A DNA stretch of 64,000 nt from contig NZ_CP067140.1 in the NCBI RefSeq assembly GCF_028553805.1, positions 3,224,001 through 3,288,000 of the forward strand. Reading direction: 5' to 3'. Position numbers and translations under genes: made by a program. The DNA is from Paracoccus saliphilus. GTDB taxonomy: Bacteria > Pseudomonadota > Alphaproteobacteria > Rhodobacterales > Rhodobacteraceae. A model generated the notes under the pieces. The model made no database searches, had not been told where the DNA came from, and was given only the letters and a program-made list of their open reading frames with translations. This document shows positions 35,144-40,330 of this stretch, piece after piece. How positions within the stretch are numbered: position 1 is the stretch's first letter; every line of letters starts with the position of its first letter.

Positions 35144-35215
35144 CCAGCATTTGCTGGGATTTCGGTTGTGACATGCGTACACGGGACGTGCACAGCCTGT
35201 ACACAAGGCGTACAC
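35144..35215. repeat. 72-bp palindrome-plus-iteron element, copy A
   Basis: CCAGCATTTGCTGG (35144-35157, 6-bp arms) is followed after 19 nt by four hexamers at exact 11-bp pitch: GTACAC at 35177, GTGCAC at 35188, GTACAC at 35199 and GTACAC at 35210. Copy B (40259-40330) has the same layout and spacing. It lies between the VOC gene and the tufB terminator. No known binding protein comes to mind. Confidence 0.85.
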
Positions 35216-35293
35216 AGCCGTTGCGTATTGGGCCCGGCCCTGCGGCCCCCTGCCCTTCCCCGATGGCGACCGGGACGCCGGGCGCGGGAACGC

Positions 35294-35320
35294 AAAAGGG
35301 CCGCCCCATGGGACGGCCCT
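35294..35320 (-). terminator. tufB intrinsic terminator
   Basis: The same stem-loop and TTTTGCG tail as after tufA, inside the repeated block, 30 nt after the tufB stop. Confidence 0.8.
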
Positions 35321-35351
35321 GTCACGTTTCAGTCGATCCGCTTGTCCGGGA

Positions 35352-36527
35352 TCATTCGATGATCTTCGACACCACGCCGGCGCCAACGGTGCGGCCGCCT
35401 TCGCGGATGGCGAAGCGCAGCTTTTCTTCCATCGCGATCGGCGCGATCAGCTCGACCTCGAATTTCAGGTTGTCGCCGGGCATAACCATCTCGGTGCCTT
35501 CCGGCAGGTTGACCGTCCCGGTCACATCCGTCGTCCGGAAGTAGAACTGCGGGCGGTAGTTCGCGAAGAACGGCGTATGACGGCCACCCTCGTCCTTGGT
35601 CAGGATATAGGCCTCGGCCTCGAACTTCGTATGCGGCTTCACCGAACCCGGCTTGCACAGAACCTGACCGCGCTCAACGCCGTCACGCTCGATGCCGCGC
35701 AGCAGCGCACCGATATTGTCGCCCGCTTCACCACGATCCAGCAGCTTGCGGAACATCTCGACGCCCGTGCAGGTGGTCTTCTTGGTGTCGCGGATACCCA
35801 CGATCTCCAGTTCGTCACCCACGTTCACCGCGCCACGCTCGACACGGCCGGTCACAACCGTCCCGCGGCCGGAAATCGAGAACACGTCCTCGATCGGCAT
35901 CAGGAAGGGCTGGTCCACGGCGCGCTCAGGCGTCGGGATGTAGTCGTCGACCGCAGCCATCAATTCCTTGATCGAGTTCTCACCGATCTCGGGATCACGG
36001 CCTTCCATCGCAGCCAGGGCCGAGCCCTTGATGATCGGGATATCGTCGCCCGGATAGTCGTAGCTCGACAGAAGCTCGCGCACTTCCATCTCGACCAGTT
36101 CCAGCAGCTCCTCGTCATCGACCTGGTCAACCTTGTTCAGGTAAACCACGATCTTCGGGATGCCGACCTGGCGGCCCAGCAGGATGTGCTCGCGCGTTTG
36201 CGGCATCGGGCCGTCAGCGGCGTTCACCACCAGGATCGCGCCGTCCATCTGCGCCGCGCCCGTGATCATGTTCTTCACGTAGTCGGCGTGGCCGGGGCAG
36301 TCGACGTGAGCATAGTGACGGTTCTCGGTCTCGTATTCGACATGCGCCGTCGAGATCGTGATCCCGCGCGCCTTCTCTTCCGGTGCGCCGTCAATCTGAT
36401 CATAGGCGCGGAAATCGCCGAAATACTTCGTGATCGCAGCCGTCAGCGTCGTCTTGCCGTGGTCAACGTGACCAATCGTCCCGATGTTGACGTGCGGTTT
36501 GTTCCGTTCAAACTTTGCCTTTGCCAT
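35352..36527 (-). CDS. tufB: Elongation factor Tu, copy B
   Basis: 391 aa, identical in protein sequence to tufA and apparently identical in DNA. The start ATG has AGGAGG seven bases upstream. Unlike tufB in many bacteria, it is not preceded by tRNA genes. It is a single-gene unit with its own promoter region and terminator, 22 kb from the str operon. Confidence 0.98.
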
Positions 36528-36587
36528 CTAGGGCCTCCTGATCGCGGGGCATGGCATGAAACGGCCCCGGTTAAACGTGCGCCGCGA

Positions 36588-36614
36588 TGTATAAGGCCGC
36601 CGGGGAAAAATCAA
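36588..36614 (-). promoter_or_regulatory. Possible tufB promoter
   Basis: On the minus strand TATACA (36588-36593) is a good -10. The best -35 nearby is TTGATT (36609-36614) with a short 15-bp spacer, so the assignment is tentative. Confidence 0.35.
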
Positions 36615-36760
36615 GGGCTGGAAGTCCGCTTTGATCGCGCATTTTTTCGCCTTGCCGCAACGGCTTCCACGAGCTTTTCGGGAACCCGCGCCAGCCCGCT
36701 GACGTTCGCATCCTGAACGACGTCATCGTTAACCGCTTTCCAAGCCGAAAGGACAAACTC

Positions 36761-37651
36761 ATGAGCCTGATGAAATCTCTCGCAAAGGTCGCCGCCGGGG
36801 TCATGCTGGCGAAAGGTGTCGGCAATCTCATGAAAAACCGACAGCAAGGCTCGCAGAGCGGGTCATCCGCGAACCGCTCGGGCGGCGGACTTCTGGACGG
36901 CCTGCTCGGAAACAATGTCGAGGGTCAGCGCGGCGGCAGCGTCACCGACCAGTTGGGCAAGGTCCTGGGCGGCCGCGGTTCCGGTGGCAGCCAGGGCGGC
37001 CTTGGCGGAATGCTCGACGGGCTGGCTGGCCGCGGCGGGAGCAGTGGCGGCGGGCTTGGCGGTATGCTGGGCCAGTTGACCGGCGGCAGAAGCGCGTCGG
37101 GCAGCGGCTCGGGCGGGCTTGGTGACATGCTTGGCGGGTTGCTGGGCGGTGCCGCGGTCGGCGGAGCGGCAGGCGCAGCCACGGGCGGACTGGCGCGCAA
37201 GGATTCGCAACCCAGCAACGACGCGAGCTTTGGCGAGCTTTTCAACGATTCGCTGTCGCGCAACGACGAACCCGAAACCGCGCCCACCCCGGAACAGAAC
37301 GCCGCCGCCGGACTTATGCTGAAGGCGATGATCCAGGCCGCCAAATCCGACGGCCGCATCGACGAAGCCGAGAAGGAACGGCTGCTTGGTCACCTGGGCG
37401 ACGAGCTGGATGACGAAGAACGCCAATTCATCCGCGAGCAGATGGCAGCCCCGGTCGATGCGGCGGCACTGGCGCAAGAGGTTCCCGACGGGCTGGAGGC
37501 GCAGGTCTACCTGATGTCGCTATTGGCCATCGATTTCGACAACGAGGAAGAGGCGCGCTACCTGCATGCGCTGGCCGAGGCGATGGGCCTGCCGCGCGAG
37601 ACGGTCAACCAGATCCATGACGAGGTCGGCACGACTCGGCTTTACAGCTGA
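36761..37651 (+). CDS. DUF533 (TerB-like) protein with Gly-rich linker
   Basis: 296 aa. The N-terminus (MSLMKSLAKVAAGVMLAKGV) is amphipathic or weakly membrane-seeking. Residues ~40-150 are low-complexity Gly/Ser with repeated GGLGGML-type units and a GGAAVGGAAGAATGGLA stretch. The C-terminal ~130 residues form the DUF533 helical domain (LMLKAMIQAAKSDGRIDEAE, then LGDELDDEERQFI and YLHALAEAMGLP), related to the TerB fold. AAAGGA precedes the ATG. Function is unknown. It is divergent from tufB. Confidence 0.85.
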   Translation: MSLMKSLAKVAAGVMLAKGVGNLMKNRQQGSQSGSSANRSGGGLLDGLLGNNVEGQRGGSVTDQLGKVLGGRGSGGSQGGLGGMLDGLAGRGGSSGGGLGGMLGQLTGGRSASGSGSGGLGDMLGGLLGGAAVGGAAGAATGGLARKDSQPSNDASFGELFNDSLSRNDEPETAPTPEQNAAAGLMLKAMIQAAKSDGRIDEAEKERLLGHLGDELDDEERQFIREQMAAPVDAAALAQEVPDGLEAQVYLMSLLAIDFDNEEEARYLHALAEAMGLPRETVNQIHDEVGTTRLYS

Positions 37652-37666
37652 TCCCGAAGACCCGGG

Positions 37667-38928: not shown

Positions 38929-39255
38929 TCAGGCGGCTTCGGCCTCTTCGGCTTCGGCAGCCATGCGGCGCTCGCTCTCTTCGCGGGACAGCGCGACCGA
39001 GGTGCGGACACCCTTGGACACGAATTCCATCAACCCCTTGACCACCCGCTCATTCGGGTCGATCCCGGCACAGCTCAGCACCTCGCGGCCATCGCGCGAA
39101 CGGGCCCAACGGGCAATCTGCTCGGGGCCATTGCCATATTTCTTGTCATCCGCAATCGCATCATCAAGCGCAGCCAGCACGACAGCCGCAAACAGCTTGC
39201 GGGCGCGTTGGCCTTGTTCGAAATTGAAAGCGGAGCCATCAACAAAATCGCGCAT
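38929..39255 (-). CDS. DUF6280-like small conserved protein
   Basis: 108 aa, soluble, starting MRDFVDGSAFNFEQGQRARK. The middle contains KYGNGPEQIARWARSRDGRE and VLSCAGIDPNERVVKGLMEF, then an acidic Ala/Glu tail. From memory this matches the DUF6280 family, restricted to Rhodobacteraceae and relatives. Function unknown. It is monocistronic, divergent from efp across a 348-nt gap. Confidence 0.75.
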   Translation of the reverse strand: MRDFVDGSAFNFEQGQRARKLFAAVVLAALDDAIADDKKYGNGPEQIARWARSRDGREVLSCAGIDPNERVVKGLMEFVSKGVRTSVALSREESERRMAAEAEEAEAA

Positions 39256-39512
39256 AACATCTTTCCGTTTCTATGGTCTTCTGCCATGACCATCTTACAG
39301 GCCAAGTGCAGGCCTTTCTTATCAATTCCGTTTCTCCGACGGTGACGTTGACTTAGACGTTATGCCGTCGATTCGATATTCCCCATAGCACATATCTGCC
39401 ATGCATATCATGCAACTCGTAGAAAATTGTGACATTCCCGCTGTGTTCGGCATGATCCGGCCCTTGGACAATAGGTGGAAATCGCCTTGACATCCGCGCG
39501 GCTTCGAACTTG

Positions 39513-39541
39513 TTGCCTAAGGGCGTCCGTCCCGATATAGG
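39513..39541 (+). promoter_or_regulatory. Predicted efp promoter
   Basis: TTGCCT (39513-39518), 17 bp, TATAGG (39536-39541), about 63 nt before the efp ATG. The rest of the 39256-39512 gap shows no gene I can support; an alternative TTGACT near 39350 lacks a good -10. Confidence 0.45.
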
Positions 39542-39603
39542 GGCGGCACAACGCCGTTCAATGCCTGGACGGAAATTCCCGCAACAGTTCCAAGAGTGCC
39601 TCC

Positions 39604-40167
39604 ATGCCAAAGATCAACGGCAATGAAATCCGACCCGGCAATGTGCTGGAGCATGACGGGGGCCTGTGGGCCGCCGTGAAGGTCAACCATGTCAAGCCCG
39701 GCAAGGGCGGCGCATTTGCCCAGGTCGAGCTGAAAAACCTGCGTGACAATCGCAAGCTGAACGAGCGCTTTCGCAGCGAAGACAAGATCGAGCGTGTCCG
39801 GCTGGACCAGAAAGACCAGCAATTCCTGTATGAAAGCGACGGCAAGCTGGTCTTCATGGACAGCGAAACCTTCGAGCAGACCGAGCTTGACGCCGATCTG
39901 TTGGGCGAGCGCCGCCCCTTCTTGCAAGACGGCATGACCGCCACGATCGAGTATTATGGCGACGAGGCATTGTCGGTCTCGCTGCCCCAGAAAGTCACCT
40001 GCAAGGTCGTCGAAACCGAGCCCGTGGTGAAGGGTCAGACCGCCGCCAACAGCTACAAGCCTGCCGTTCTGGACAATGGCGTGCGGGTCATGGTGCCGCC
40101 CTTTATCGGCCAGGACGAGGATATCGTCGTCAATACCGAGATGTTCGAATATAGCGAACGCGCCTGA
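39604..40167 (+). CDS. efp: Elongation factor P
   Basis: 187 aa, three OB-like domains. It relieves stalling at polyproline. The tip loop VKPGKGGAF places lysine at position 34, so this is the lysine-type EF-P (modified by EpmA/EpmB in some bacteria, unmodified in others), not the arginine type. The C-terminal [20 protein letters not shown] segment is typical. A strong terminator follows. Confidence 0.98.
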
Positions 40168-40192
40168 CCGAAAGCGTTCGCAACTCGCGGAC

Positions 40193-40232
40193 AAAAAGGG
40201 ACGCAACACCAGCGCGCGTTGCGTCCCTTTTT
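40193..40232. terminator. efp intrinsic terminator
   Basis: A perfect 15-bp stem including flanking A and T tracts: AAAAAGGGACGCAAC (40193-40207) pairs with GTTGCGTCCCTTTTT (40218-40232), 10-nt loop. Symmetry allows action in both directions. Confidence 0.9.
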
Positions 40233-40258
40233 CATGCGCAACAGATCATGCTGCTTGA

Positions 40259-40330
40259 CCAGCAAATGCTGGGTTTTTGCCTGCACAACGCGTACACTGC
40301 ATGTACACAGATTGTACACTGCGCGTACAC
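40259..40330. repeat. 72-bp palindrome-plus-iteron element, copy B
   Basis: CCAGCAAATGCTGG (40259-40272), 19 nt, then four perfect GTACAC at 40292, 40303, 40314 and 40325 (11-bp pitch). Same orientation and geometry as copy A. It lies 27 nt beyond the efp terminator, in a convergent gap where no promoter is expected. Confidence 0.85.

Follow-up and report, generated by a model that had tools for sequence, protein, structure and literature searches.

A dispersed intergenic element of Paracoccus saliphilus with four hexamers at an exact 11-bp pitch, a predicted protein-docking array

The chromosome of Paracoccus saliphilus carries, at 68 places, an array of four GTRCAC hexamers in direct repeat, spaced exactly 11 bp apart, in most cases next to a 14-bp palindrome and preferentially behind the ends of genes. 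On the sequence comparisons described below we consider it reasonably probable, with appreciable doubt, that this is a protein-docking array under selection, and binding is predicted. The array, beside the palindrome, would be the working part of a composite element, some 150 bp long, that is dispersed between genes. It has four strong sites, often joined by a weak fifth that keeps the register; each 11-bp helical turn carries one site, and every site points in the same direction.

Two copies lie in the window, the 64-kb stretch of the main chromosome contig that was analysed (C1:3224001-3288000), and direct reading confirms an earlier description from the letters alone (the sequence-only reading) of each as a palindrome, 19 nt and four hexamers. 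In copy 1 the 14-bp palindrome CCAGCATTTGCTGG occupies positions 35144..35157 of the plus strand (also found by a palindrome scan), and the array (35177..35215, plus strand, also found by pattern scans) reads GTACAC, GTGCAC, GTACAC, GTACAC with hexamer starts at 35177, 35188, 35199 and 35210, an 11-bp pitch. Copy 2, likewise on the plus strand, has a 5' GCAAC-N10-GTTGC hairpin (40203..40222; direct reading and hairpin search), the 14-bp palindrome CCAGCAAATGCTGG (40259..40272; direct reading and palindrome scan), a weak fifth site CTGCAC (40281..40286) 11 bp ahead of the first hexamer, four GTACAC hexamers at the same pitch (40292..40330, starts 40292, 40303, 40314 and 40325; direct reading and pattern scans) and a 3' motif TGCTTGCGTTGC (40335..40346) related to the family 12-mer AGCGTGCGTTGC. 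Seven of the eight hexamers are thus GTACAC, the sole GTGCAC being that at 35188. The two copies had been described as lying in the same orientation beside tuf and efp; both are indeed on the plus strand, but relative to their own genes they are opposite, as copy 1 follows tuf (a minus-strand gene, about 35352-36527) in antisense and copy 2 follows efp (39604-40167) in sense, its hairpin also forming the upper portion of the stem of the efp terminator. Genes were called by a simple ORF script, and one ORF upstream at copy 1 is probably false. Searching the window for the palindrome with at most one mismatch gave 3 matches against 0.22 expected, and for the array with at most three mismatches gave 3 matches at the two known places against 0.00 expected; a chance origin of the pattern is ruled out by shuffles and reversed-pattern controls.

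Across the whole genome, 52 places are within three mismatches of the full palindrome-N19-array pattern, and a search for the array only adds 16 further places, with no hit for the reversed control in either search. All 68 are on C1 (4.38 Mb) and none is on the 243-kb contig C2. The element clearly has many further copies. The hexamer spacing does not vary freely either: when the middle gap was allowed to range from 1 to 14 bp, 122 of 122 matches, from 8 of 41 genomes, had 5 bp (some of these matches being one place counted on both strands or overlapping), and the reversed control gave none. The sequence-only reading had proposed a fixed-spacing, multi-copy array of protein-binding type on one helix face, and the copy searches, the pitch and the retention of the hexamers all support this as a prediction.

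Palindrome and array form the core of a longer unit, about 150 bp in length, which opens with a GCAAC-N10-GTTGC hairpin. A weight matrix built from 65 copies, together with 35 aligned copies, gives the consensus TTGAC-CCAGCAAATGCTGG-GNTTTNGGC-YGCACAACCC-(GTRCAC-N5)x4-AGGCAGCG-GCGTTGCGC. The hairpin precedes the palindrome in 61 of the 65 copies (with a loop of 10 in 50 of those), and when searched for alone in the genome it gave 39 hits, one of them inside the end of an opposite-strand element; the array is present at 37 of the remaining 38 independently found hairpins, with the palindrome 53-57 bp further on. Many copies have the weak fifth site CTGCAC in register ahead of the first hexamer. 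Behind the array the 12-mer AGCGTGCGTTGC is repeated in 24 of the 65 copies, 121-125 bp from its first occurrence, and the 3' modules differ between copies. The repeat unit is YGTRCACMRNN, the base preceding a hexamer being C or T in 168 of 168 spacers from 56 arrays of this genome and the base following it mostly A or C; arrays of four GTGCAC, for which the strand is undefined, were omitted here, and 18 loci were removed from the corresponding set of other genera as non-members or simple repeats. Within the palindrome, 2 compensatory or double changes stand against 47 single changes in 348 cells, and we therefore regard it as a site in DNA and not as the stem of an RNA. Pairing between neighbouring spacers was considered and rejected: spacers of this genome show an anticorrelation of -0.77 and a complementarity of 122 against 100.6 (sd 6.0), and since the anticorrelation is absent in the two other sets we take it as lineage history.

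The copies are concentrated between convergent genes. Among the 54 of 65 matrix copies whose gap type could be assigned, 29 lie in convergent and 4 in divergent gaps, against 18 and 26 for other gaps at the same loci (p 3e-8), and a same-strand stop codon lies 51-112 bp ahead of 38 of the 65. The tendency recurs in other genomes of the genus, sampled as a subset of their matches (9 sites fetched from G014, 25 from G019, 6 from G029 and 20 from G213): G019, G014 and G029 together have 9 convergent to 1 divergent, against 6 to 14 for other gaps (p 0.005; 21 of 40 copies typed), and G213 has 9 to 2 with few other gaps for comparison (p 0.18; 19 of 20 typed). A wider set of named genomes gives 21 convergent to 7 divergent among 71 loci, a rough count because the set skips six loci and includes some non-Rhodobacteraceae and many Paracoccus records. 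A special tie to translation-factor genes and a special role for the 5 kb between the two window copies had also been suggested; neither is supported, as other copies follow genes of many kinds and the efp loci of G018 and further genomes of the genus (below) are without the element, and the link to tuf and efp is incidental. Marking of the origin or terminus was likewise discarded (largest gap between copies p 0.067, away from the skew switch, strands mixed).

Within the genus the element is unevenly distributed. Perfect arrays occur in 25 of 125 genomes, six of which have at least 10 matches, and there are none in the other 100; in G213 arrays are also found on a 707-kb scaffold labelled as a plasmid. 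Using a stricter pattern, 3 of 149 genomes were positive in a sample of the family with close to one genome per genus, and the array with at most one mismatch was found in none of 24 genomes from 24 other families of the class. A scan of named genomes gave at least 120 matches; among those listed are Pontivivens, Yoonia, Tateyamaria, Planktomarina, Palleronia, Nioella and Sulfitobacter, and the arrays of these genera, among the matches listed, mostly stand without the Paracoccus palindrome. Unrelated simple tandem repeats are also among the matches listed elsewhere. In the nearest mapped relative, G018, whose mapped flanks are 85-93% identical, seven sites of this genome could be placed (two on the upstream flank only): the element is present at one, behind parC, with an identical array, and six are empty, and the 293 kb of G018 that were searched contain no further place that outscores the reversed control and no decayed copy. 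The anticipated conservation at orthologous efp loci was not borne out, the element being missing behind efp in G018 and 16 other genomes of the genus (the G021 stretch stops about 80 bp behind efp). A weak BLAST search of plasmid and phage records with a 97-bp query gave no match, and the Paracoccus core is in none of the viral contigs searched. No description of this element was found in the literature searched, nor is one present in the accessible text of a survey of the Paracoccus mobilome (PMC3281130).

Where copies do share a site, the hexamers are retained and little else is. When the array-rich genomes G014, G019 and G029 were compared, the corresponding place carried an array for 7 of 9 fetched G014 sites, six times in G019 and once in G029; a G019/G029 pair gives an eighth orthologous comparison. 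Over these eight pairs the hexamers are 90% identical, the spacers 60%, the palindrome 78% and the 19-nt gap 78%, values close to those of 112 comparisons between unrelated copies (92, 61, 80 and 76%). Fourfold sites of the flanking genes are 70-84% identical, which contradicts simple drift of the spacers (60%) at the neutral rate. The hexamers and pitch are thus retained, while the rest of the element carries no trace of common descent at a site, an indication of replacement, conversion or fast change; that orthologous copies are no closer than unrelated ones fits replacement or conversion as well as it fits constraint. At one place in the Tateyamaria records the hexamers agree at 21 of 24 positions twice and the spacers at 6 and 2 of 15, with flanks 88-90% identical. 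The 20 copies in G213 have spacers that are nearly fixed too (92%) and a variable 19-nt gap (61%). Arrays also hold the same place across genera: one follows gltD in Planktomarina (L066), in Paracoccus (L072) and in G019 (L331), and one adjoins lpdA in both Palleronia (L068) and Yoonia (L074), the latter pair with 23 of 24 hexamer and 4 of 15 spacer positions in common. Place comparison of 49 pairs yielded 22 that could be scored, 1 with an opposite-strand array, 13 without a flank match near the array and 13 without an array. The totals over the 22 are 472 of 528 hexamer and 168 of 330 spacer positions, and include L198/L330, L198/L358 and L247/L336; in these three the match is to a reverse reading at a distance of 141-145 bp, and they are excluded as evidence for the same place. 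A pheT site that had seemed common to Pontivivens and Paracoccus failed the placement check.

Several known systems share features with the element. REP and BIME sequences are scattered repeats of intergenic DNA that lie behind genes and carry protein sites, the RAYT (Y1_Tnp) gene being flanked by the repeat; the element resembles them in being dispersed, intergenic and behind genes, but has a phased array of four and no RAYT neighbour. A RAYT/REP assignment was rejected, as this genome has four Y1_Tnp matches (three below threshold or in broken frames) and the best element score is below background at all four. The iterons of replication origins are tandem direct repeats of about 11 bp, a similar length, but here many separate four-unit arrays are spread over the chromosome rather than one being placed at an origin. 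DnaA boxes are of the TTATNCACA type and end in A; an array of these does not account for the element, as C follows the first hexamer in 66% of the 56 arrays of this genome and the base before the T is G. Chromosomal parS (TGTTYCACGTGRAACA) was also dismissed, being located elsewhere at C1:4351560 and 4353435. The PhoP box, in the accessible part of its description (PMC3335776), consists of head-to-tail hexamer direct repeats 5 bp apart with the sequence (T/G)GTTTA; the head-to-tail hexamers with a 5-bp gap seen in 122 of 122 matches are like it and other OmpR/PhoB operators, but there are four units rather than two, the sequence is GTRCAC and the location is behind genes rather than at promoters. 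BldC and RdfS, as far as the accessible text of PMC5859096 and PMC11963761 goes, form cooperative head-to-tail filaments on tandem direct repeats, and BldC can fill four; the array would suit such loading, but the BldC repeats are 9-bp AATTXXXX(C) and ours are 11-bp YGTRCACMRNN with many gene-end copies. We assign the element to neither group because sequence, pitch or location fails.

The main rival to the docking reading, which we consider rather unlikely though it may also hold alongside it, is that this is a non-autonomous mobile element (MITE-like or REP-like) in which the array and palindrome bind a transposase or accessory protein and only hexamer-bearing copies spread. It would explain a fixed-layout unit at 68 places here and at one site in G018, the six of seven placed sites that are empty there, the lack of private similarity between orthologous copies and the scattering of array-rich genomes within the genus. 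Yet of the terminal inverted repeats and target-site duplication that mark a MITE, no duplication is seen, nor is a clean end (two of the six empty G018 sites aligned on one side only), the 12-mers left and right agree at 0.697 both within and between elements, and the Y1_Tnp loci of this genome lack the element. Nor would the shared G014 sites (7 of 9), the lack of any decayed copy in 293 kb of G018, or the arrays of other genera without the Paracoccus palindrome be expected of it.

Two further readings fare worse. That the arrays are operators of an OmpR/PhoB-class transcription factor for nearby promoters is improbable: the hexamer-N5-hexamer repeats have PhoP-box geometry (the accessible part of PMC3335776), but the excess of convergent (29) over divergent (4) gaps, the position of 38 of 65 copies 51-112 bp past a same-strand stop codon and a sequence unlike (T/G)GTTTA all argue against it. 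Still harder to credit, and in our view very improbable, is a 3' UTR RNA element in which hairpin and repeats end or stabilise transcripts, as might be supposed from the hairpin in 61 of 65 copies behind stop codons and from its part in the efp terminator at copy 2; five loci gave no Rfam match, the palindrome, the only part so analysed, shows no compensation (2 double and 47 single changes of 348 cells), it is not evident why an RNA would need a strict 11-bp pitch, and both copy 1 and the copies in Tateyamaria run antisense to the preceding gene.

In the docking reading, a sequence-specific protein would load onto the array head-to-tail, with one protomer for each turn and a dimer on the palindrome perhaps seeding the loading, and we infer that a short nucleoprotein filament would form behind the ends of genes, most frequently between convergent ones. 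Such a filament might act as a boundary, either as a roadblock or as an insulator against read-through transcription or supercoils, and this boundary role, taken alone, is a tentative suggestion that we hold to be doubtful. In this reading the element also spreads or turns over. An extended form of the proposal, possible but again doubtful, is a previously unrecognised bacterial chromosome-boundary system. Its protein would be patchy in distribution and have relatives in several Rhodobacteraceae-type genera; it would polymerise on tandem YGTRCACM arrays behind genes with one protomer for each helical turn, and lineages would multiply or drop the arrays on gaining or losing it. If the docking reading is true, the element would be a DNA docking site present in many copies behind genes and phased exactly with the helix, and would provide a direct handle for finding its protein. 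The genus itself supplies natural contrasts, with 68 places here, one site in G018 and 100 of 125 genomes in which a perfect array is missing.

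Behind the array, a set of elements in the Paracoccus saliphilus genome (G000) carries a 3' module with the terminal hairpin CCAGTACGAAAAACATACTGG, found at no fewer than eight positions on the 4.38-Mb contig C1 (1053126, 1228664, 1644674, 3491158, 3569542, 3860450, 4169718 and 4296505, among others). Other copies in this genome have different 3' modules, GATTCCATTT...ATGGAATAAATG or GACGYYACGTCA...GGTTAACG. A single family hairpin, at C1:509822-509841, has no known array nearby and is possibly a decayed or altered copy of the element.

A further intergenic stretch at window positions 40500-40625 is repeat-like, with GGATATTTGCATGAAGAAGAAGG and a G-rich hairpin, and stretches resembling it appear in G018, the nearest relative mapped, as well as close to further elements of G000.

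Simple tandem 11-bp repeats of the GTACAC type are also seen in viral contigs and Bacteroidota records (loci L167, L171, L173, L176 and L179, and the Sphingobacterium/Prevotella loci L127, L135, L145 and L147); these are likely unrelated, and are perhaps iterons.

The sole array of G018 lies 3' of the topoisomerase IV gene parC (locus L046, G018:C1:480448), and its G000 counterpart is located at C1:3904865, the whole array being identical between both genomes.
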